A program made the position numbers and the translations under genes. From Symbiodinium natans (lineage: Eukaryota > Sar > Dinophyceae > Suessiales > Symbiodiniaceae): a stretch of 64,000 bases of DNA. The notes under the pieces are model-generated. The model ran no database searches, was not told where the DNA came from, and was given only the letters and a program-made list of their open reading frames with translations. Shown in pieces: positions 45,309 through 60,300 of the stretch (position 1 is its first letter; each line of letters starts with the position of its first letter). The stretch covers positions 823,501-887,500 of the forward strand of contig CAJNDS010002113.1 of the NCBI GenBank assembly GCA_905221605.1. Reading direction: 5' to 3'.

Positions 45309-46059
45309 GACCAGTGCTCGACGCAGCAGGAGACTCTCCAGATGCAAGAGAAAGCGCTGGCGTCAGCTTTCCATAATGCCGTGGAGGCATGGTGATAAGA
45401 CGGGCTGGGGATTGGAATTCTCACAACTTTGCGGCTTTCACGAACCAGGAATCTCTCTGACACTGCAGCCCTTCCTGTAGGCCTTGCACGCCCCAACGAG
45501 GAGGTCATAGTGTACGGTTCAGGATGGATTTGGGGTAAGTCCACTAGGAAGCCATCTGAAGCAGTGATGCTACTTCGGCAGTGCAACGTAATGTTTTGGC
45601 AGCACGCTTATTATTGTTGGTGGCCCAACACCCCTCAGCATCCCCCTCAACCCTAACCTTACTTTCTTCCGTGGCATCGGGGGTGGTGCTCCTCCCCGTG
45701 CGCTTCCTCCTAAACCCTAAGGTAAAGTCCTCAAAACCCATGAGCCCTTAGCCTGGCAAACCTTGGTTGTCGTTTCGACCTTTGCTCTTTCGACATAATC
45801 ATTCATGCAAAAGTCCTGCAGGGAAAAGCATGCATGAAAAAACACACGTGTATGTAGCACATATGTAATATGCCTACGGAGTTTGTGTGTCGACGCATGT
45901 GCACATACAAGTCTCTACAGAAAATACAACTGCACATCCCAAAGCTCAACACCAGGTCTTCAAGCAGTCGCTGCTGGACGCCACCGACCAGGCAGTTCAC
46001 AGCTCCTTGTCCTCGCTGGGGCTCGCGACGAAGGACGGCACGAGATGTTTGAGATTTTA
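45309..46059 (+). CDS. Coiled-coil protein, two exon candidates
   Basis: 45309-45391, after GGTGCAG and before GTGATA, reads QQETLQMQEKALASAFHNAV, an amphipathic helix. 45956-46059, after CACCAG and ending in TAG, reads LLDATDQAVHSSLSSLGLAT and ends CLRF. A long minus frame covers 45149-45586 but has no heptad or domain pattern. The two exons may belong to one gene; the product is unknown. Confidence 0.4.
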
Positions 46060-46061
46060 GG

Positions 46062-46520
46062 GCAGGTTGCACATGGTTGTGCCCAAAGCCCATTACCTCT
46101 CATGTATGCTGAACTCAGGCACCTTCCTGAAACAAGCTGTCTTGGTCTCCTGGGCTGTAGGGAGTATAGTGCTTATAGGATGCTTGATCTCAGGGTAGAC
46201 AAGGGTCGAACACAAGAATGAACGGAGGTGCAAAGGCACCTCATTCCCTAACTGTAGGGTTTGGGGTTTGGGTTTAGGGTTTAGGGTGCTCTGAGTTTGG
46301 CTTGAAAGGCCCTAGGAATGACCCGGAAAGAGTGCAGCCCAAAGCCATCGAAAACTGAAGCCAAGAAGTCTACAGTGTCGGCACCCTAACTCCTAAACGC
46401 ATGCGCCCCAAAAAGCCTGACTGACTTCAGAGCCTCCTGGGTTCTGAGCCTGCACGCTTGCAGTACAGCCACTCCAACCTCCAAGGCGGAAGTTGTGTCG
46501 GATTCCGACATCCTAGTAAG
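46062..46520. other. Intron-like stretch
   Basis: A short TTTAGGG run is at 46255-46290. No exon was seen. Confidence 0.35.
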
Positions 46521-46525
46521 AACCA

Positions 46526-46586
46526 GTAAGCTTAGGGAGCAAGAAGCTCAAAGACCACCGGAGCTTGAGCTGCTCAAGAGGTTCGG
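46526..46586 (+). CDS. Exon between AACCAG and GGTTTAG
   Basis: Reads KLREQEAQRPPELELLKRF, helical and charged, and runs directly into GGGGTTTAGGG. Another case of an array as the intron start. Confidence 0.4.
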
Positions 46587-46589
46587 GGT

Positions 46590-47770
46590 TTAGGGTTTAG
46601 GGTTTAGGCTTGAGCCCTTGACCCTTTCTGCACAGGGCTCCCGACCCTTAGTTAGGTGAATCGGCTGGAGGCGCTTCGGATATGGCCCTAAGCCTTACGC
46701 AAGAAAAGGCGCTTATTTTTTCCAAATTTCAATGGCATACGGAGATTCACGGATGATTTTTTAATTTACAGAATCATGTAGCACAGTTCATTGTATGATG
46801 GTTGCAGGGGGCGTACCTTCTTAGCCGCGTCAGGAGGCAAATGTCCTCCGGGGCGATGCTCATCCAGCACCAGAGAGAGCCTAGGTGGAACCAGTGGATT
46901 TAGAGTGTTCAGGGTTGAGGGTTCCACGATACTTGGCACAGAAATTAGGGTTTAGGGTTTAGAGCTTAGGGTTTAGGGTTTGGGGTTTGGGGTTTAGGGT
47001 TTAGGGTTTAGGGCCAAGAAGAGCCCCTTTGTGAGAAGCTGACTCTCCGCTGCTGGGGGTTGAGGACTCAAAAAGAAGGGGTTTTGGCTGTCAGTAGATG
47101 GTTACGCTACCTTACCCGAACACAGTCGCACGTCTTCATCTCCGACTCCTTGAAGCTGCCTTTAGACAGGAAGAATGGGAGGTTAACATAGGCTAACCTT
47201 ACTTCAAACCGCCTAGCTTGAGAAGCCTGCGCCCTCTGAACAATCTTGCTGGACCTGAAATCTTCTGAGCTTTGGAAGACCCCGAAATCGTCTGAGCTTT
47301 GGACAAGAGCCTAGGCCGGAAATCGCAACTGCGGCATGGTTCGAAGATGAGGACTTTGGGGCGTGCCAGCGATGAAGAGCAGCGAGCCCATCAACACCCG
47401 CAGAGTCCCCCCCCCCCTCAATTGGGGTTTAGGGTTTAGGTTTACAGGGTTTCAAGTTTAGGGTTTAGGTTTACAGGGTTTAAAGTTCAGGGTTTGGGGT
47501 TTAAGTTGAGGGTTTGAGGTATATATATTTTTTCAGAAAACGTCATACTGCAGGCCCGAGTTTTATGTACATGCCTTTTCGGGCTCTTTTTTTATCATAA
47601 GTATTTGCAACCTAAACAATGAGATGGATGGGTTTACGTCGGGAGGGTGGGCTGAGCAATGAGATAGATGGGTTTAAGTATGAAGTGTAGGCTGAACTAC
47701 ATCAGCTACGTTACCTTTAGCCCTTGGTCATAGAATCCTTACTCTGTGACTGGTTATAGAAGGGAGGGGA
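46590..47770. other. Arrays and a 42-bp tandem duplication
   Basis: TTTAGGG arrays at 46589-46610, 46946-47015 and 47425-47520. 47618-47697 holds two copies of a unit of about 42 bp beginning AATGAGATGGATGGGTTTA and AATGAGATAGATGGGTTTA. A short frame at 47365-47400 (ASDEEQRAHQHPQ) is a weak exon candidate. Confidence 0.45.
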
Positions 47771-47774
47771 AAGG

Positions 47775-47803
47775 ATAACAAAAAGGGGGGGGGGGGAAAA
47801 GAC

Positions 47804-47834
<31 letters not shown>

Positions 47835-48010
47835 AAGGGGGGGGGGGGAGGGGGGGGGGGGGGGAAAGAAAAAAAAAAAAGGGGGGGGGGGGGGGGGGCA
47901 AACGATTTTTTTTTTTTTTTTTTTCTTCCACCCCCCCCCCCCTCCCCCCCCCACTTTTTTTTTTTTTTTTTTTCCTTCCCCCCCCCCCCCTCCCCCCGCC
48001 CCCCTCCTTC
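47775..48010. repeat. Polypurine then polypyrimidine mirror-like palindrome
   Basis: About 115 bp of alternating G and A homopolymers are followed, after GCAAACG, by about 110 bp of T and C homopolymers. The two halves are roughly complementary, so the tract can fold as one long hairpin. Homopolymers this long are also a known weak point of sequencing and assembly. Confidence 0.8.
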
Positions 48011-48816
48011 TTCTTCCCCTTATAAAATATGTATGTTTACAATATGTATACAGAGAATCCTACTATATGCTGTAACCTTTTTTTTTGTACCTGTATCTTT
48101 GCTTTTACTTTCATCCGCACATCCGTCGCAAGGTACGGTCCCCAACTCATCCAGCTCCATGCGCAGGGAGCGTCAGTACATACAGATATACTGAGTCAGA
48201 TAAATATTATCTAGATACATATATGTACATATAAATTAGTAGTTTTACATATAATTACAATGTACTTTGGGAACTACGACTGAACGACGTGCATGTTCTT
48301 TTGGTAGATAAGCATAAAACACAAGATTTCTTCCATTATTTAACGATAATCTAGTGAGTTGCAGTGACTGTGACACACCCAGCACAGACTCGTGCTTGTG
48401 TCAAACCCAACATCTTTTCCGGATAAACGACATATGTTGCTGAGAGAAGATCTGTTTATCGTGAAACGAAATCGACATAAATAAAGATACATATGTGATA
48501 CTGTCTATTACGCACACACGTTTATACACACTTCATCCCTGATCGAATGTAGCAACTTTTCACACTCTATAGTGATAAAAACATGTAAACAGGCCCATGT
48601 TCGTCGTGGTCCTCGTGCCTGAGCATCGTGGCTGTCCCAGTCTTCAGGGTCTTGCCTGTCTCATCAGACTACTGATGTGTTGCTGTATATGACCGCCAAG
48701 TAGAACTTGCTGAACTTTCGCATCAACTTTCATACCGTCATCATTTCTCCTCAAGAATAGTTCGGTAGGGACATCACTGGTGCTGTGATATCCTGGTACT
48801 TGTTTACTCGTCGAAT
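48011..48816. other. AT-rich upstream region of the transposon-like gene
   Basis: No telomere-like heptamers occur and no long frame is present. It probably contains the promoter and the left end of the mobile unit, but no terminal repeat or core promoter was identified. Confidence 0.4.
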
Positions 48817-49073
48817 ATGAGCGAGCCGCCTGATGCGGCGTCGCGTGTCGGCGGTAGACCGTCTCCCGATGACTTAGAGAAGGACTTGGAGTCTCTCATG
48901 AACGAGGAATCAGAGAGACGAAACATGGGCTCACCACACATGGCTTCTTCAGCTCCAGAGCTAGCTGCGTCTGAATTGCCTCAAGATGCAGCACATCCAC
49001 CTCCAGCAAAGCGTCTTCGTGGTGCCCAGCTGCTACTACAGCCGCAATATCGCGTAGATTTTATATATATGTC
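48817..49073 (+). CDS. Probable first exon of the transposon-like gene
   Basis: ATG at 48817 opens an acidic N-terminal tail (PSPDDLEKDLESLMNEESE) with a basic cluster (AKRLRG) that could be a nuclear signal. The coding character ends near 49053. A GT at 49054 is the better-looking donor but is out of phase with the acceptor at 49401-49402 (ATTTCCAG). The GTGTAG donor at 49074 gives an in-frame join to FRAFSDLHEQDPPGG. The intron is AT-rich and lacks telomere-like repeats, unlike the host introns. Confidence 0.5.
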
Positions 49074-49402
49074 GTGTAGTATTATCTTGAACTGTCATAT
49101 ATATATATAATCTTTCCATCGTGGGGTTGCATGTATAATGCAATGTCTGTATAAACCTTTCCATGTCACAGCATTCGTTTTCTCTTGTCTTGTTAGACTG
49201 CTATACACAATATTTCTGATATCGTCTTATGTGTCCACTGCGTGTTCCTCCATAGACCTCCCACTGTCCTGCCATGGGTTTTATACATTATCCGGTGCAT
49301 AACTACCATTGTTGGATCGTATCATGTGTTTCATATCCATTAGCTGTACACATGCCGCTATGGTGTACTGCAATATCATACACACATACTTTTCATTTCC
49401 AG

Positions 49403-52400
49403 GTTCCGTGCCTTCTCAGACCTTCACGAACAAGATCCCCCCGGTGGTGAGATTCCCCATCTTCCTGCTGTTGATCCTGTTCCGCCGCCCAAGACGATTC
49501 TCGACATTGTGTCAGAGTATAAGTCCTGGAGTGTTGCCACGCATCCTAACGCCTGTCGTCACACTTGCCTCGTCCTGGCCGTCACCAAGTTTCTGTGCGA
49601 CATGAATGCCACCAACTACATGATGTCCAATGTTCAGAAACTGATACTCTTCCTCTTGATTGACGGAGACAACTGGCGTGCACATAAGAGACAACTATTC
49701 CACCTTTGTGATGGGGCGTGGGACATGGAAGAAAAATTGAGCTTGGAAGCTTGGGACTTCTTGTCAGCCGTCGAGGGCATCTTTGTTTCCATTGCCACAA
49801 GCATCGAGAACGATGAAAAGAACATACTCTGGTCGTGGGCAGACGCCAGAAACTATGTTTACAAAGCCATCGAAGGGTGCAAACGCCGTGGGGAGCTCGT
49901 TGACGTCTGTGCTCGTATAGCGAAGGAACATAGTGATCACGTCCGAGTTGTTACTAGCAACAAAACATGGAAGGCGACATGGGCTCGAAGAGTCGCTGAT
50001 ATGCTTGCTTCTTACAGGAAGGCGTGGGAGACTCAGACACACTCCGTGGTTCTCTCTCGTCTTTTCTTGCAAGACTGCGACATGCCCATGCCAAAATCCC
50101 AAGGTATATGCTTCAGTGACATCTACTTGACTTCCAACTGGGAGATTCGCTCCAAGCATGAGGCACAGGACTGTTACGTACGGTTCGACTACCCTTACTT
50201 CTACGAGAATACCCTTGCAGGAGACCCGTCCATCAATCTCCCTATGCTCAAAGAAAGGCTGAGACTCTTCCTGACCTCTCTCTACTACAAGAACGAGGAT
50301 GCTTTTCAAGCCAAGCTATGCTTTCTTTGTGCTGCCTTCCAAGGCGTCTGTACGGGAAAGATGCTGTTCCAGGTTGGTCGTGGAGGGGATGGTAAAGGCA
50401 TGGAGGCTATCCTAGATGCAGCTCTCTTTGGTTCGAAGTCTTCGGCTAGTCTGGACAGTGGTGTATTCTTGGACCGAGCGGAGTTCAGAAAAAGTGCCGA
50501 ACTTGTTTGGAACAAATCGAATGTCAGGATCCAGGAAATGGACTCCAAGGTTCGCTTCATATCCGAAATATGGAAACGGTTTGTGGTCGACGAGGAGATC
50601 GACTGCAGGGTAAACTATGGTTTCACTACCAAGAGACGCTTTGGTACGTCCATGAAGATCCAGGAACTGAACTATGAGAATGTACCGGTGATTGAGGAAA
50701 GCAAGGACATCAACAAGGCGTGCGAGCAACTTCGGAGACGTGTGGTCTGCATTCGCATGGGCACATCGACCTACACGTTGAACCCAAACGAAGTTGACCA
50801 TGATCGTGGCATTTACCTTCTGATTCCACAAGAGGAATTAGCGTCGGATTTACGTCATCCGGTCACTGCGTCGTTGTACCTCCGTGATTGGTGTCTGCCC
50901 TTCTTCAGAGAGAACCCGGTTGGGGAGTGTCTGACAATGTTGCATGATCTGAAGTCCATCAGTGACAAGCTGGAGATGGACACTCAGTGGCTTGCTGCAA
51001 AGTTGTCCGGTCGTGATCTAGTTCCTCCTGGGGATGATCGCATGCTGGTCGATGCCAATGACGAAATAGTTGAGTTGGTTCATGCCTCGATGCCGACCAG
51101 ACCCATTCTCAAGGAGTACTTGTTACACAAGATTGATGAGTTCCCAGGCTGTATTACATCAACTCGCGGTCGTACCACGAAGCTTCAGCGGTTCGTGTCT
51201 GCAATTGACCATTCCTCCCTCAAGCTCTTCAGACAAGTGGATCATAGTACTTTCGAGAAGCTGCAGATCAACTGGGCGAGGCTAAAGGAGTCGATGGCTC
51301 GACATGGCGGGGTTAACATCTTCGGGGATTGGACTCACTGGACATGCCCATTTGACTTGAAGCACATCATCCAAACATGGGACGGGAATGCATTTCAGGA
51401 CCATAGTACTTTCCTCCTCCAGCACTGCACAGTCAGAGGAGTTGGTGATGCGGTATTGCGATCGGCTGTCACTAGCCTGGACGAGACTGTAGACATTGAG
51501 CGACTCAAAGCATATGCACTTCAAGGAGTGGATCGTCGTCAAGAGATGCTTGAAAGGTACATTGCGCGACACGAGACTGCAGGACTCACGTCCAGTGACG
51601 GCATGGCCACCGTTACGGTGGAGTACTATACCCAACCAGGGTACGGTCGTCTACTTGCTAGAGGTGCAGCAGGTCAGAAACTCACAAGAGAGGCTAGAGC
51701 CGAAGCTTTCTTCCACTGCTCTGAAGTTGACGCTGCTTGTTGCCATCCACGGCTACTGCAACAAAAACTTTTCGACCTCGATGTCTGGTCCGATGGCAAA
51801 TACACCATCCTAGCACTCTTCATCAAGCATTACCAAGCGTGGCGCTACTGTGTGGCCGACTACATGGATGTCTCTGTGGGTCAGGCCAAAACGGAGCTCA
51901 TTCGCATTTTCTACGGAGGCAAACCCTCCTGCGAAATTCCCTTCCTCATGAAGCTCTGTGCAGAGGTCCAGACTGCTGCTCTCTCCATTGTTCATCATCC
52001 AAGCTCAAGAATGTGGCGGGATCTTTACTCGGATCGAAGGAATCCAGAGTTCTCACGTCTCTCTGGCATTCTGTCAATGGAAGAAGCCAAAATGCCTGAG
52101 TCAGTGTCAAGTTTGATGGGACAGGCTATGTGTGTACTGCTGTTTGATGGTGCCTACGTGCAGTGCCGTAATCTACATGATGACATTGCTCTGTGTCATG
52201 GGATGGAGACGCGCGACTCCAGGGTGGGGTTGCAGATCCGTCGGTGGGCTCCTTTGGCTTGCAAGTCCGTTCCTCGTCTTTTGGTCCGTCGAGGTCAAGT
52301 GCAGTTCTTTCGGACTGAAGATGTCGCAGACCTAGGAAACTGTTTGCTGACGTCCTTGTACTACATGGAAGATGACCTCGAACTGGAGAGCCTCAGTCAG

Positions 52401-54104
52401 AGCGATCTGCGTCACGGTATGTCCGCTCGGGATTTCAACTACATGACACTGGGCATGTCGCAAGGCGATGACGGCCAAGCTTATCTGCTGGAATGGCTTC
52501 CACACGGCTTCATTCGAGAGGAACTTCCGAATGGAGCATTGCTGGCCTTCCATGAGCCCAATTCATCTGGTACTTCGGGACATTGGTGGGCGGCCAAGAT
52601 ATGTGGTGACACAGAGGTCGCTATCTTCGACTCCCAAGCGCCAGAGTGTCTCCTAGGTGTTGCCTTCACCGTTTTGGAAGACGTTCTTCGTGAGACCCAG
52701 ACTGCGACTGCTTTCATACTCACCCGTGCTCACACAGTAGAAACTCTGCGCGTGCCAGAGTCGTCGGTGTATGACTTGCGTGGAGCCGGCCCAGACGACC
52801 CGGATGATCTCGTATCCATCGTGACTCCTCGTGACACTTGCTTAGAATGTGCTTCACCGCTGTATCCTGCACACGACGTCCAAGGCCGACTATACACATT
52901 GAATGGCGTGAAGAAGGTCACGGTCACGACCAAGCGTTGCTCTCGCAAAACGTGTCGAACACATCACCATTACAACTACAGGAAGGTAGACGGGCAGATG
53001 TACCACAGCCTGTCGCTTGGGGACATGAAGTACGTCTTTGTGAATAGTAAAGTCGGCTTTGACCGCACATTCCTGGACTATCACGAGGCCTTGCAGTTCC
53101 GAGGAGGTATCAGCCACAATGCCATTGAGTTCGCTCAGTCACATACTCTCTGGAATGACCCGGAGCAACACTACCGCTGGCACCGTGAATACTCGACTGC
53201 GCAGCTGTATTATGCTGTGGTTCAGGAAGCGCGTGAGATGTGGTGTGATTCCAGAAGCAACCAATCAGCCAGACTCTTCAACCTAGAGGTAACTCAGCCT
53301 CTCTCCGAGGCCTTCCTTTCTGAGTACAAGGATTGGTGGCAGCGTCAACAATTCTCTCCAGCGGAATGGCGCCGTGTCAAGGAGGTCGTTATGGACGGGC
53401 GCGAGAAGGTCGCAGCAAAGTGCCCAGGCAACACGCCTGCCCGCGTCGGTCGTCCCCGCAAGGATGGCCGCATCAGACAACATGAAAACGGATGGTTCAT
53501 GGCCATCGATCCCGCCACAGGGCTTGTGATGTCGGCAACCAATATGGCTTCACCAGAGAATAATGACATCGCTAAACAAGTCCTACAGAACATTGTGGAA
53601 CGTGCTCCCAACCTGGACTGCGTCATCTATGACAAGATGTGCGTATGTCAAAAGGCATTCCTGTCCGACGCGAAATTTCGCCAGGTGAAGTACTGGTGCA
53701 TTGACCGCTTCCATGCCAGGGCCCATGGTGACACATGTACATGCTGTCCTCTCGTCCATCGGCGCCTGGACCTTCGCCTACGCAATGTCAACTCGTCCAT
53801 TGCCGAGCAGACCTTCTCCTGGTTTCGCGGCTACGCATCTACCTTCAATGTGAAGAATCCATTGACGCATGTCTTCTATGTCCTACTGTACGTCAAGAAG
53901 CATAACCTCTTGATCCGCAAAGACTACCTTCGACACTTGAACCCTTTCAGTGCTCGTGCCAAGGCTGCCAAGAATGCTCGGGTGCTCATCCGTCCAGCTT
54001 CGAAGAAGTACATCTGTCGGCGTCCGTCTGCATCTTTGTCGTCCCACAGAGTCTTGAGGAAGCCGTCGAAGAAAGTCATCAAGCATCACATGAAGAAGAA
54101 GTGA
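49403..54104 (+). CDS. Fused SF3 helicase / TV-Pol-like polymerase / cysteine peptidase / DDE transposase
   Basis: The frame is open from an in-frame stop at 49341 to TGA at 54102. Residues below are numbered from codon 49509. SF3 (D5-like) helicase: Walker A GRGGDGKG 290-297, Walker B around VRIQEMD 339-345, then DCRVNYG and a sensor-like N at 'QELNYENVP'. Family-A-like polymerase: motif A D741 in SEVDAACCHP, motif B K794-Y802-G803 (AKTELIRIFYGG, the K-x7-YG of Pol I), motif C D880 in LLFDGAYV. Helicase followed by such a polymerase is the TV-Pol arrangement known from viruses and transposons. Papain-like peptidase candidate: C945 (GNCLLTSLYYM), H1025 (GHWWAAKI), D1041 (IFDSQAP). Zinc cluster: C1111, C1114, C1144, C1149 and H1152-1154. 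DDE transposase, KDZ-like by its layout: D1334 (AIDPATG), D1375 (IYDKMC), E1433 (IAEQTFSWFRGYA). A basic tail ends the protein. Inference: one polypeptide, perhaps self-cleaved, that replicates and moves its own DNA. No capsid gene was seen. Confidence 0.75.
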
Positions 54105-54624
54105 GACGTACATAGGTACTGTGCGACATGCGTGCCGTGAGGGTTTTCGTACCTTGTCATATAGGCTTACATATCATACGATGCTCATCAAATGGTATTC
54201 CGGGATATACATGATACACATATGCTTATGAGATGGAAGTACGAGATCACACGGTTGCGCTAGCATGTCACACGGGATACACAGAGGACATCCAAAGTGT
54301 CTTCTCACTATAAGTCTGAAAGCACACGCGGGGGCATACACGAGAAAAGTAAAAAACGTGATTCCTCGAGATTCAGTGCAGCACCATGCGTGGGTATAAT
54401 ATGGTATATAGATATGCACGGATATGCTTTGATGACTGAGGTTCAAGCCTCAGCTTCTGCGAGTGGCGACGTCAGATGTTATGATATTGCCGCGCTTAGT
54501 TGGGCAGGCTTGTGTTCTTATAACATCCTGTGTATGTTGTTTGTCCACATATACTAAAAATAAGGTAAAATCACGTAAAATACGTGTTTTGGACACGAAA
54601 AATACAGGCCTGTATTCCGACGCA

Positions 54625-54656
<32 letters not shown>
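54105..54656. other. 3' flank of the transposon-like gene
   Basis: AT-rich with no heptamer arrays and no supported gene. A CT/AT tract lies at 54624-54658. The GATGTTATGATATT 14-mer near 54474 also occurs at 5486. Confidence 0.4.
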
Positions 54657-54658
<2 letters not shown>

Positions 54659-54740
54659 GGTCACCCCCCCCCCTCGACAGACCCCGGAAGTATATTTCCG
54701 GTCTGTTCAGGAAGGGGGGGGGGAAAGCACCGCTCCAAAA

Positions 54741-55676
54741 TTCCTCGAGTTTCCAAAAATCCAAAAACCCAAAAAATCCAACCAGGGTTCCGCTTTTTGG
54801 AAACTCGAGCGGGAGCCTCAAAATCCTAAAACCGAGCAAATTCCTCGAGTTTCCAAAATTCCAAAATTCCAAAAAAATCCACCCCAAGGTTTGGATTTTT
54901 GGAAACTCGAGCGGGAGCCTCAAAATCCAAAAACCGAGCAAATTCCTCGAGTTTCCAAAATTCCAAAAATCCAGAAAAATCCACCCCAAGGTTTGGATTT
55001 TTGGAAACTCGAGCGGGAGCCTCAAAATCCCAAAATCGAGCAAATTCCTCGAGTTTCCAAAATTCCAAAAACCCAAAAAAACCCACCCCCAGGTTTGGAT
55101 TTTTGGAAACTCGAGCGGGAGCCTCAAAATCCAAAAATCGAGCAAATTCCTCGAGTTTCCAAACTTCCCAACCTTGGGGTGGATGTTTTTGGATTTTTGG
55201 AATTTTGGAAACTCGAGGAATTTGCTCGATTTTTGGATTTTGAGGAAATTCCTCGAGTTTCCAAAATTCCAAAAACTCCAACCCAAGTTTCGGATTTTTG
55301 GAAACTCGAAATTCCAAACCTTGGGGTGGCTTTTTTTGGATTGTTGGAATTTTGGAAACTCGAGGAATTTGCTCGATTTTTGGATTTTGAGGAAATTCCT
55401 CGAGTTTCCAAAAAAAATTCCAAAAACTCCAACCCAAGTTTCGGTTTTCTGGGAACTCGAGCGGGAGCCTCAAAATCCAAAAATCGAGCAAATTCCTCGA
55501 GTTTCGAAAGCTCCAAACCTTGGGGTGGGTTTTTTTTGGATTTTTGGAAGTTTGGAAACTCGAGGAATTTGCTCGATTTCTGGATTTTGAGGCTCCCGCT
55601 CGAGTTTCCAAAAACCCAAACCTTTGGGGTGGATGTTTGGATATTTGGACTTTTGGATTTTTAGAAACTGGATTTT
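54741..55676. repeat. 102-bp tandem array with CTCGAG palindromes, in direct then inverted copies
   Basis: CCTCGAGTTTCCAAAA recurs at 54743, 54843, 54945, 55047 and 55149 (period 100-102 bp). Each unit ends GGAAACTCGAGCGGGAGCCT, the inverse of its beginning. After 55180 the units occur in inverted and truncated form (GGAAACTCGAGGAATTTGCT), so the array is itself a large palindrome with many hairpin options. Confidence 0.85.
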
Positions 55677-55689
55677 CGATAAGAGTTTT

Positions 55690-56880
55690 TCAGGGGTTCT
55701 TATATGATTCATTATTATGTTTTAGGCTGCCTATTAAGTTTAATAATGTTCCTGATCTCTTTAATGGGAGTCCTCATTTAATTAATAAGACTCCTAATCA
55801 TTTTACTAGCATTCTAAGTGATCTTCAATGGGATTCCTGTATTTGTTTAATAGGGTTCGTATTAGATTTTAAGGATACCTATTAAAGGACTTTATTGCGT
55901 TTAGTATTGATTCCTATTCAGTTTAAGCAAATGCCAAATAATTGGAATACGATTCTGAGTAATTGTAATAGCATTCTTCTTCCTAGTTAGTTTTAATAAA
56001 AGTCTTAGAATTTTAATAAGCTTCATAACAGATTTTATATATATTGCTATTAATTTCAATAGGCTTCTTATTCATGTTCATAAGATGCCTTACAATTTCT
56101 AATTGGGTTCCTTTTTGCTTTGACAAGCTTCCTATTCATTTAAAAAGGCTTCTGAATAATTGGAATAGGCTTCGTATTCATTTTAACAGGGTTTCTCATT
56201 CATGTTGACAGGATTCCTAATAATGTTCATAGGATTCCTACTAGATTCCACAGTGCTCCGATTATGTTTTTAAATCCTGTTCCCTATTCATTTCAATTGG
56301 ACTCGAAGTAATGTTATTGTAACTCTTATTTGTTTTATTAGCAATCCTATTAATTAATGTTTTAATAGGGTTCATTATAATTCTAACAGTACGACTCTTC
56401 TTGTTTTAAATTTTGAAGGGCCCACATTACTTTTTAATCGAATTTTATTGGCTCCTCTTAATCCTTTAATAGGATTCATCTTCATGTTAAACGGATTCCT
56501 GTTACTCTTAAAAAGAATTCATAGATTCTTTTGTAGGGTTCCTATTAATTTTAATAGCATTCCTATGAATTCAAAAGGGTTCCTATTCGTTTGAATGGCC
56601 TTCCTATGGTTCCTCTGAATTTAGGACGCCAAGAAATTTTAATAGGAGCTTCTACGTATATTTCAACCAGGTTCTTATTAATTGTACTAGGATTCTTACT
56701 AAGTTTTCAAAAAAGACTCGTCTTAATTTCAATAGGGTTCTCATTCATTTTAATGGGGTTCCTATTGATTTAAATCGGATTCCTATTGAACTCATACGAA
56801 GCCTATGAATCCTAATAAACTCAATAGGAACCCAAGTAAAACTAAGAGCAATCTTATTAAAATTAATAGCAATCCACGAT
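55690..56880. repeat. AT-rich degenerate repeat built on ATTCCTATT/AATAGGATTCC
   Basis: GATTCCTATT, GGTTCCTATT and TTTAATAGG motifs recur every 25-30 bp for 1.1 kb. From about 56790 they switch to the reverse orientation (AATAGGAACCC, ATTAAAATTAATAGCAATCC). No gene. Confidence 0.7.
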
Positions 56881-57160
56881 GTCGAGCAAATTGTTCAGGT
56901 CCTTACAGCATGCGTCCTTCTCACATCTGTCTGCATCTTTCATTGCGAACACAAAACCGTACTAATCGAAAAAATATGCTCTATTGTGTGTTAACGTGTC
57001 TGGCTACTGTGTGCAGCTATGCTGTCCGTCGCGCCCTCAGCCCTTTTTTGCTTCCGGGGTCTGTCGAGGGGGGGGGGGGGGTGAGCATGTCTGATATATA
57101 TAGATACACACATTTTTGTGTAGTCCTTAGTCCTTGTATAACCTAAGTAGCCTCAAAAGT

Positions 57161-57300
57161 ACCCCTAAACCCTAAACCCTAAACCCTAAACCCTAAACCC
57201 TAAACCCTAAACCCTAAACCCTAAACCCTAAACCCTAAACCCTAAACCCTAAACCCTAAACCCTGAACCCTGAACCCTGAACCCTAAACCCTAACCCCTA
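57161..57300. repeat. Pure (CCCTAAA)n array, about 19 units
   Basis: Marks the right border of the array-free block of about 9.6 kb that begins after 47520. Confidence 0.95.
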
Positions 57301-57308
57301 AGCCCCCT

Positions 57309-60300
57309 AGGGTCCCTCCTTTGGCCCCTTCGTGGAAGGATCGCTCCAGCCTGAAGTCTATCTTGTACAGCAACTTGGTCGTCTTTTTGGTTTCTGGGTT
57401 CCTTATAAACTGATCAACCCAAAGAATTGTGCCCTTATCACAATTTTGGGTTTAGGGTTTAGGGTTTAGGGTTACTGGGATACCCAGGCAACCACAATGC
57501 CTTGGGCCTCCCGAGCGATGAGGAGCTGCAACACTGTTTAGACGAGGCCCTTGGAACGGACCGACTGGATCTCATGGACCTGGAAGATATCAAAGCCTGG
57601 TGGGACTTGCGAAGGTGGGGCCGAAATTGTATTGAGGGGTTTTAACGTTTAAAAACCCTAAATTGTATTAAAAGTGCAGCCCCTCCCCCCCCCCCCCCAG
57701 GTTGCCGAAATCTTGCGTGCGCCAGGTACATACAGATCGACTTTATGGATGAGTCTGCGATGATGGACTACTGCGGAGTTCTGACCATCATACTGCTGGC
57801 TGCCTTTGCGATCGCCGGGGTGTTAGACTCTTTGTGGGTTTAGGGTTTAGGGTTTAGGGTTTAGGTTTTACGGTTTAGGGTTTTGGTGCTTTACCGCAAC
57901 TTTGGGTCCTGAGCCTTTTTTTGGTTTTTGGGCTTCTTAATATAAGGCAGCTAAAAGCTTTAACTTATAGCCTAAACCCTAAACCCTAAACCCTAAACCC
58001 TAAACCCTAAACCCTAAACCCTAAACCCTAAACCCTAAACCCTAAACCCTAAACCCTAAACCCTAAACCCTAAACCCTAAACCCTAAACCCTACTAAGTG
58101 CAGCCAAGGACTGGCTGGCTCACGCCGACCTCTTCTCCCCTGGGCTGCTATTGATCATGGTACTCAGCGGATGCCTGAGCATCATCATGCTAGGTTTTAG
58201 GGTTTAGTGTTTAGGGTTTAGGGTTTAGGGTTTAGGGTTTAGGGTTTAGGGTTTAGGGTTTAGGGTTTAGGGTTTAGGGTTTAGGGTTTAGGGTTTAGGG
58301 TTTAGGGTTTAGGGTTTAGGGTTTAGGGTTCCCTTTTGTTGGGTTCTGGGCTCCCTTATGAAGTAGCCAACCCCAAAAAGGGGTGCCCTTGTCATAAGAT
58401 GATTCCTGGGCTACTCAGGATGTTATTCAGGTGTGCATCGACATCAACCACATCCTTGAGCGCGACAGATCCTGGGCTCCCATTTCGAGGTGATCAGAGG
58501 GTGTTCCCTGAACCCTAAACCCTAAACCCTAAACCCTAAACCCTAAACCCTAAACCCTAAACCCTAAACCCTAAACCCTAAACCCTAAACCCTAAACCCT
58601 AAACCCTAAACCCCTCCCAATGCAGGAGCTTGAGTTAATTCCTCATGTCATCCCTTTGCGACCCCTCAAAGGACGCGGCAGCGTGATTCTGGTTCGGGGG
58701 GGGCGAGTGAAAGTACGCACTAGCTCTATGCAGGAGTTGTTTTCTAACGTTTGGTGCCACATCTTAGACCCTAAACCTTAAAAGGCCTAAACCTAAACCC
58801 TCAACCCTCAATGCCCTGAACCCTAAAAAGGGCCCCAAACCTAACAAGCCCTGAACCCTAGAAGCCCTTAACCCTAAAAGCCCTAAAAGCCCTAAACCCT
58901 CAAAGGCCTAAACCCTAGAAGCCCTACACCCTAAAAGCCCTAAACCCTAAGCCCAAAACGCTAAACCCTAAAGCCCCCTAAACCCTACAAGCCCCAAAAG
59001 CCTTGAACGCCTCAAAAGCCTCAAAAGCCTTAAAAGCCCTAAAACAGCCTAAACCCTAAACTCTAAACCCTAAACCCTAAACCCGAAACCCCAAACCCTA
59101 AACCCTAAACCCTAAACCCTAAACCCTAAACACTAAACCCTAAACCCTAAACCCTAAACCCTAAAAGCCCTAAGCCCTAAGCCCTAAGCCAAAAGCCCGA
59201 AGCCCGAAGCCCGAAGCCCGAAGCCCTAAGCCCTAAGCCCTAAGCCCTAAGCCCTAAGCCCTAGGCCCTAAGCCCTAAGCCCTAAGCCCTAAGCCCTAAG
59301 CCCTCAGCCCTAAGCCCTAAGCCCTAAGCCCTAAGCCCTAAGCCCTCAGCCCTCAGCCCTAAGCCCTGAGCCCTAAGCCCTAAGCCCTTGACCCTTAAGC
59401 CTTAAGCCCTCAGCCCTAAGCCCTAAGCCCAAGGCCTGGTCCTGGTGGATGCCGCTGCCGACGCCATTCTGTCCAAGCGATCCGATCCTTGGGGAGGGCT
59501 TTAGGGGTTTGGTTCGATAGTGTTTAGGGTTTAGGGTTTTGGGTTTTGGGTTTTGGGTTCAGGGTTTAGGGTTTAGGGTTTAGGGTTTAGGGATTAGGGT
59601 TTAGAGCATGATGGATTTCTGTGAGTGTACAGAGGGACATATTGGGTGTCCTCTTGGGGATACTGGGAATAAACAGCCCTAGACCGCGACAATCCCTTTT
59701 GCATCCTGTGCACTTCGTAGCCTAAACCCTCTTGGTAGCCCAGCGATGCCCTTTTGCCCTTGTTTTCGTTCAAGGTTTAGGGTTTAGGGTTTAGGGTTTA
59801 GGGTTTAGGGTTTAGGGTTTAGGGTTTAGGGTTTAGGGTTTAGGGTTTAGGGTTTAGGGTTTAGGGTTTAAAGCAATCAACCCCAAAAGGGTTCCCTTGT
59901 TATGAGATGGTTGCTGGACTACCAAGCCCTTGGACCCCTGAGCCCCAACACCTTTGCACCTTTCACTCTTCAGCTAATCTAGGACCCAGAGTAGGCCCTT
60001 CTTCCCTTGTTGGGGGGTTTTTGGGGTTCCCCTAAACCCTAAACCCTAAACCCCTAAACCCTAAACCCTAAACCCCAAACCCTAAACCCCAAACCCTAAA
60101 CCCTAAACCCTAAACCCTAAGCCTCTTTCAACCAAAAAGGGCACCCTTCTTATTCCTCGGTTTGCTGGCCTAGTAATCTCCAAGGATGCCGTGGAGGTTG
60201 CGACGCTGCTGCGCGCAGTGGAGCGGAAGGCGGCTGGGCTGAGGGTTTAGGGTTTAGGGTTTAGGGTTTAGGGTTTAGGGTTTAGGGTTTCGGGTTTCGG

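Follow-up and report, generated by a model that had tools for sequence, protein, structure and literature searches.

Can a eukaryotic DNA transposon carry, within a single gene, the means of copying its own DNA as well as of moving it? The question is raised by a locus of Symbiodinium natans lying in a 64,000-nucleotide (64-kb) stretch of contig CAJNDS010002113.1, hereafter the window, where a transposon of 7097 bp (~7.1 kb; 47534..54630, plus strand) holds one long gene whose product joins helicase, polymerase and cysteine peptidase-like modules to a zinc cluster and a transposase of the KDZ (Kyakuja-Dileera-Zisupton) type. Our reading, to which we assign a probability of about 0.6, is that of a recently active KDZ-type DNA transposon with one spliced gene for a fused replicase-transposase, which would copy itself either at the break or, once excised, in a circle or concatemer.

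The gene and its modules

The long frame is open from 49404 to 54104 on the plus strand (1566 codons, stop at 54102-54104); from its first GTG, at 49509, it gives 1531 amino acids, and it is the longest ATG-, GTG- or TTG-started frame of the window, the runner-up of 375 amino acids lying inside a tandem repeat. An earlier note on this DNA had read the protein as one frame at 49403..54104. The open frame is indeed there, but 49403 is probably a 3' splice site and not a start codon, with a further exon upstream. Exon 1 (48817..49031, plus strand), an acidic leader with KRLRGAQL at its end, is in frame with exon 2 (49403..54104, plus strand), which holds the helicase, polymerase, peptidase-like, zinc and transposase modules, across a GC-AG intron predicted at 49032..49402 (plus strand), and the spliced protein would have 1638 amino acids. 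The homologue P0015 runs uninterrupted through the junction of the two exons. Residue numbers given here count from 49404, and 72 is to be added for the spliced protein.

A protein search at an expectation value (E) of at most 0.001 returned 30 homologues, and the 15 that carry an organism name all come from dinoflagellates (Symbiodinium, Cladocopium and Polarella), which points to a dinoflagellate host. One, P0001, has 100% identity to the window across 96%, and eight others span at least 96% of the frame at 38-69% identity. The motifs on which the earlier note had based an SF3 helicase with Walker A and B, a TV-Pol-like polymerase, a cysteine peptidase, a Cys/His zinc cluster and a KDZ transposase with D-D-E are all present and conserved among the 29 homologues other than P0001, and apart from the peptidase these assignments are supported by the comparisons given below. 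The parts also recur together, since the key residues of every module stand in one chain in 9 of the 29 homologues, from Symbiodinium and Polarella among others (one of the nine, P0013, misses part of the helicase). The fusion that had been proposed is therefore not an assembly join and, where this could be tested, did not dissolve into separate genes. Mean identity in 40-residue windows reaches 0.78 in the helicase, 0.63 in the polymerase and 0.72 in the transposase, and lies at 0.20-0.34 in the peptidase-like domain. Trees built from the front and back halves of ten sequences have four of seven splits in common, a figure equalled by 4 of 2000 label shuffles.

There is a strong case from profile comparison that residues 690-948 (51471..52247, plus strand) form a predicted family-A polymerase of the TV-Pol type. 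This region of the window family matches 118 TV-Pols in hhalign with a probability (Prob) of 98.0 and an E of 1.6e-13 over 174 columns, in register at the arginine (R749), the D-x3-C-H motif (D776), the K-x7-YG motif (K829, YG837-838) and the DG motif (D915-G916). Against the same TV-Pol set, five other domains of the chain gave E values of 0.13 or more; reversing the profile gave 0.042, and none of 30 column shuffles did better than 0.0054. The reference was seeded with MAP_030 of Microcystis phage LMM01, which is presumably the TV-Pol that Iyer et al. report in LMM01, and with a Polaromonas plasmid protein, and its 118 proteins, all longer than 420 residues, include homologues of the latter (best 120 of 297); MAP_030 adjoins annotated transposase genes, and the Polaromonas protein is encoded near a recombinase gene. 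Conservation is given here and below as homologues with the letter over homologues having any letter at that place, out of 29: D776 is kept in 28/28, K829, D915 and G916 in 29/29 each, and the beta-hairpin arginine R749 in 25/28, as in 118/118 references. The earlier note had called the FDG of motif C unusual for family A. The references carry HDG (H and D in 117/118, with one gap, and G in 118/118), and since FDG aligns with it, FDG is the window family's form of the TV-Pol motif and no oddity. Four residues before K829, at the RxxxK position, the window family has V, L, I, M or T, and the 118 references have mainly V or I, with no R among their six commonest letters. Direct searches of Pfam, PHROGs and PDB sequences with the polymerase region gave no polymerase match. 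TV-Pols have been argued to act as primase-polymerases in the sections of Iyer et al. (2008, PMC2579912) drawn on here, which also describe them as never fused to nucleases, and an excerpt of PMC10061031 reports primer-free DNA synthesis by a bacterial relative together with a partner protein.

Residues 60-520 (49581..50963, plus strand; Walker A at 50376-50399) are with moderate confidence predicted to be an SF3 helicase of the P4/D5 type. The comparison with 15 P4-family helicases (P4 alpha and L135-L148) gave Prob 63.2 and E 6.9e-5 in hhalign, with Walker A, Walker B, the asparagine of motif C and the arginine finger all aligned; the other domains scored 0.55 or more, 20 shuffles 0.25 or more and the reversed profile 0.036. 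A larger set of 80 P4-like viral loci was dropped as yardstick because its members are too alike. Among the homologues the Walker A lysine is kept in 27/28, the Walker B glutamate and aspartate in 26/26 and 22/26, and the motif C asparagine in 26/27. Two of six members hit the P4 primase C-terminal family TIGR01613 (best E 0.017), UniRef names three Cladocopium homologues 'SF3 helicase domain-containing protein', and Pfam searched with the helicase region gave no match. Taken together, Pfam, PHROGs, NCBIfam and PDB sequences returned nothing decisive for helicase, polymerase and peptidase. Weak library hits to endonuclease V (3 of 12 members, best E 0.034), enterotoxin H (0.08) and RickCE (1 of 12, 0.05) were taken as chance.

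Giant open frames of 1624-2972 codons occur elsewhere in the genome (L027-L030; C391 twice, C824 and C2018). One of them, L027, over the 1225 codons compared, matches the window helicase with Prob 97.5 and E 8.7e-12 and the window polymerase with Prob 78.8 and E 1.6e-5, is weakly similar to the TV-Pol reference (E 6.9e-4), and by eye contains a stretch resembling a RecB-type nuclease.

The domain that follows the polymerase (52251..52793, plus strand) is only ~25% identical between most members, and its C980, H1060 and D1076 are kept in 26/26, 27/27 and 26/28, in the Cys-His-Asp order of papain-like cysteine peptidases. The trio of the earlier note thus holds, but a papain-type family match was not found in PDB sequences or Pfam, and as no library names the domain we call it a predicted cysteine peptidase and no more, on the strength of its residue conservation. 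Elsewhere, a frame at L019 (220-2166) ends in a zinc cluster and transposase start and has before them a CHRD..HF..YD stretch, which compares marginally with the peptidase-like domain (E 0.012) and may be a diverged form of it. The zinc cluster itself (C1146, C1149, C1179, C1184, H1188; 52839..52976, plus strand) lies before the transposase, as the earlier note had it; it shows weak similarity to CxC4, and C1146 is kept in 21/21 homologues. A separate relative, L012, matches CxC5 (5.5e-5) and CxC4 (0.02), both below the cut-offs.

The C-terminal module (53181..53993, plus strand) is a KDZ transposase with the DDE residues D1331, D1410 and E1468. Of 20 family members, 8 hit the Pfam KDZ profile at E of at most 0.1, the best at 1.3e-7. 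Among 51 sequences, 24 align through the C-terminus, and these keep D1331 in 24/24, D1410 in 21/22 and E1468 in 24/24; among the 29 family members the corresponding counts are 21/21, 16/17 and 10/12.

Ends, copies and target sites

The genome was searched for copies over 759 Mb in 2543 contigs, and all copy counts are lower bounds. The gene lies at at least five places (C1801, which is the window, C2445, C1201, C213 and C416) at 97-99% protein identity, with an intact reading frame in three of the five copies and a broken one in two. When the copies are aligned, the element ends at common bases within flanks that are unrelated among the loci compared: the right end falls at 54630 in 5/5 and the left end at 47534 in 4/5, the left end of C416 not being found in the alignment. 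The left terminus (47534..47571, plus strand) reads CAGAAAACGTCATACTGCAGGCCCG... and forms a weak imperfect inverted repeat with the right terminus (54590..54630, minus strand; ...ACAGGCCTGTATTCCGACGCACTCTCT), with a local score of 11 that 2.25% of 2000 shuffles reach. A repeat search found a 40-nt subterminal direct repeat in two copies with 82% matches (47617..47695, plus strand). The one exception to the unrelated flanks is the left flank common to the window and C1201 (L032 and L003), which extends over at least 3 kb, the right flanks of the two being different; therefore the pair goes back to one ancestral insertion, or one of the two is misjoined on the right; segmental duplication plus rearrangement would account for the pattern, as would misassembly in the simple repeat on the right. 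The nearest 60 bases of right flank are 78-100% A+T in four of the five copies and 52% in the window.

The genome also holds a sister family of ~5.4-kb elements (C1963, C735 and C1413), whose transposase is 33-34% identical to that of the 7.1-kb element. Its members start with CAGAA and end with CTCT (C1413 without the last T) and have a clear terminal inverted repeat of ~36 bp. C735 contains a P-loop frame of 594 codons and a separate transposase frame of 430 codons, and comparison of its 13 frames of at least 110 codons with all profiles gave a transposase match only, the best E values against polymerase being 0.041 (TV-Pol) and 0.079 (window family). The P-loop frames upstream in L012 and L021 were considered as the same helicase and gave no match (E 0.47 and 0.22); against SF3 they scored 0.49 and 0.014.

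With the two families combined, the support for target duplications of 7 bp is moderate. An exact 7-bp flanking duplication is present in three of seven left/right pairs, and when left and right flanks are mismatched in 1 pair of 49 (one-sided Fisher test, 0.005), the seven pairs not all being independent because the window and C1201 share their left flank. In the 7.1-kb element C213 matches at 7/7 bases, C1201 at 6/7 and the window and C2445 at 3/7; in the sister family C1963 and C735 match at 7/7 and C1413 at 3/7. An 8-bp duplication, as in Zisupton, was exact in none of the seven pairs and was rejected. The excerpted part of PMC12730594 gives 7 bp for Kyakuja and 8 bp for Zisupton, and reports Kyakuja without terminal inverted repeats. 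That the element is mobile, as the earlier note had it, is thus supported by the shared ends of copies dispersed over at least five places, together with these duplications.

Two right-hand junctions carry an additional footprint. In C2445 (L002) bases 2-8 of the left end come directly after the right end, and in the sister-family copy C1413 (L010) the same place is taken by bases 1-7 of that copy's own left end. Left-end bases thus follow the right end in two of eight right flanks against 25 of 63,980 window positions, a background counted for the left end of the 7.1-kb element (binomial 4e-6, post hoc). The last three of these bases in C1413 are also readable as target duplication, in which case the trace would be only four bases long. 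The footprint is possibly the trace of a circular or concatemeric intermediate, with filler DNA as an alternative source of such junctions.

Just within the left end, at 47757-48015, a long purine run is followed by a pyrimidine run, with inverted arms of 79 nt that are ~80% complementary; similar runs are present in other copies, and they could be an origin or the product of simple slippage. Directly outside the right end, 54738-55650 holds tandem repeats of 102 bp and 147 bp, partly inverted, and degenerate repeats of ~21-nt period, resembling TAGGRTTCCTATT, span 1.1 kb at 55723-56875. Interstitial telomere-like CCCTAAA/TTTAGGG arrays are found at 47425-47515, 57163-57305 and 57836-58000, and telomere-like repeats also adjoin L021, L023 and C1413. 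An Rfam search of 46000-58000 gave no match.

Self-replication and its alternatives

In the explanation that we propose, the KDZ domain and zinc cluster would bind the ends, and the DDE residues would serve to excise the element and to insert it, mostly in repeats rich in A+T. Its DNA would be opened by the SF3 helicase, and the TV-Pol domain would prime and extend new DNA, so that copying might take place at the break or, after excision, in a circle or concatemer. The Cys-His-Asp domain would probably trim the protein into two halves, one the replicase and the other the transposase. Self-replication and processing are what we infer from the predicted modules. A fuller version, in which a one-gene self-synthesising eukaryotic transposon yields TV-Pol/SF3 and KDZ parts by self-cleavage, is copied as circle or concatemer and re-inserts leaving 7-bp duplications and sometimes left-end bases, is tentative, and we would put it somewhat short of even odds.

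Several observations weigh against this explanation. The terminal inverted repeat of the 7.1-kb element is weak, and the at least five copies give no sign of vigorous replication. No duplication is seen at the mapped boundary in the window, C2445 and C1413 (3/7 each), and the duplications that do occur sit in low-complexity flanks. The end-to-end trace in C1413 need not come from self-replication, because it belongs to the sister family, where the search turned up no polymerase. The window's own Pfam KDZ match has an E of 0.0015 and 18.6-18.7 bits against a cut-off of 26.6, and the peptidase-like domain gave no match among PDB sequences and only scattered Pfam matches at E of 0.05 or more, one member each. 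Furthermore, 20 of the 29 homologues have no letter at one or more key positions, many of these being shorter or partial models, and a search with the back half only, limited by length, returned 18 shorter homologues of which the polymerase profile matched 4 and not the other 14; the latter may be fragments or broken copies, or may represent forms with separate genes. Finally, the front and back module trees disagree in deep branches, some of them with good support, so that modules may in part have been exchanged, or the trees may suffer from long-branch error.

Of the alternatives, the one that survives best is an ordinary cut-and-paste KDZ transposon with a captured replicase, whose helicase-polymerase would only fill gaps or repair the donor or target site. 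This is in agreement with the few copies found and with the similar-ended sister elements, which have separate transposase and P-loop frames and, in C735, no polymerase match; indeed sister elements of this kind fit the capture of a polymerase by a KDZ element. Helicase and polymerase are however well conserved, with key residues kept in most homologues, and a ring-type helicase with a likely primase-polymerase would seem to exceed what gap repair needs. We consider this alternative unlikely, if well worth keeping in mind.

It is decidedly improbable that the element is an integrated virus, or a relic of virophage type, reduced by the loss of its capsid genes. Sputnik has a replicative protein that combines TV-Pol with a D5-type helicase, according to the cited portion of PMC2579912, and one long chain that includes a peptidase is reminiscent of viral polyproteins, but the 7.1 kb hold no further plus-strand frame of at least 150 amino acids, and on the minus strand only one of 181 amino acids within exon 2. 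No relatives were found when viral contigs were scanned with a few peptide patterns from the helicase and the polymerase, or when prokaryote contigs and phage records were searched with the polymerase, and the KDZ transposase and transposon-like ends likewise speak against such an origin. A domesticated host gene family, multicopy by chance, is more improbable still. Constraint between the copies is mildly purifying, as the three pairs of intact copies differ by 17/23, 12/24 and 11/11 synonymous/nonsynonymous changes, giving Nei-Gojobori ratios of nonsynonymous to synonymous rates of 0.39, 0.58 and 0.29, but the copies end at equal bases in unrelated flanks and two of the five are broken. An assembly join of separate genes can practically be dismissed, since the same frame is found in several genome copies and in homologues of other species, and the common left and differing right flanks of the window and C1201 would at most concern one misassembled or rearranged right junction.

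Comparison with known systems

We regard the element as a KDZ transposon that brings along a replicase of its own. The genomes of dinoflagellates are large and full of repeats, and the element would make the spread of such transposons in them testable. In open-licence PMC literature, with subscription papers and Repbase outside the search, the matches listed report neither the fusion nor dinoflagellate KDZ elements, and no open-licence PMC paper was found that pairs a dinoflagellate with Zisupton. The KDZ domain, Cys cluster and DDE residues are those of KDZ transposons, and the probable 7-bp duplications are Kyakuja-like; the differences are that here helicase, polymerase and peptidase-like modules precede the transposase in one fused chain, and that the ends are CA..CT, where Kyakuja has CA..TG (both Kyakuja features as given in the consulted part of PMC12730594). 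Giant KDZ elements with extra genes have been described from a brown alga, the accessible section of PMC12477816 mentioning no polymerase. The sister elements share a related transposase and, in two of three, the 7-bp duplications, but they are ~5.4 kb long with separate frames and, in C735, no polymerase match. As elements in which no polymerase was found thus share the genome, the pair offers a test case for the merging of replicon and transposon.

The TV-Pol elements of bacteria, plastids and Sputnik resemble the 7.1-kb element in their core motifs and in being associated both with a helicase of the D5 type and with a recombinase or transposase (PMC2579912, in part). Unlike them, it is probably a nuclear eukaryotic transposon with the transposase in the same chain, and its helicase precedes the polymerase, whereas that of Sputnik is C-terminal according to the same portion of that source. 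If our reading is correct, TV-Pol would be placed in a eukaryotic transposon.

Polintons or Mavericks have a protein-primed family-B polymerase (PolB), a retroviral-type integrase, long terminal inverted repeats and capsid genes, and to our knowledge the self-synthesising transposons known, Polintons and casposons, use family-B polymerases. The 7.1-kb element is like both in that polymerase and integrating enzyme alike may be encoded by the element itself. It differs in having a family-A-like polymerase rather than PolB and a KDZ transposase rather than a retroviral-type integrase or Cas1, and in consisting of one gene in 7.1 kb with no capsid gene seen; its matches are to TV-Pol and KDZ and its inverted repeat is short and weak, PolB and capsid profiles not having been searched individually. 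If it does copy itself, it would represent a self-synthesising class whose polymerase is of the family-A type and whose transposase is a DDE enzyme, compact in that one gene would provide for helicase, primase-polymerase, processing and transposition. It would also be a small system for asking whether a DDE transposon can copy itself.

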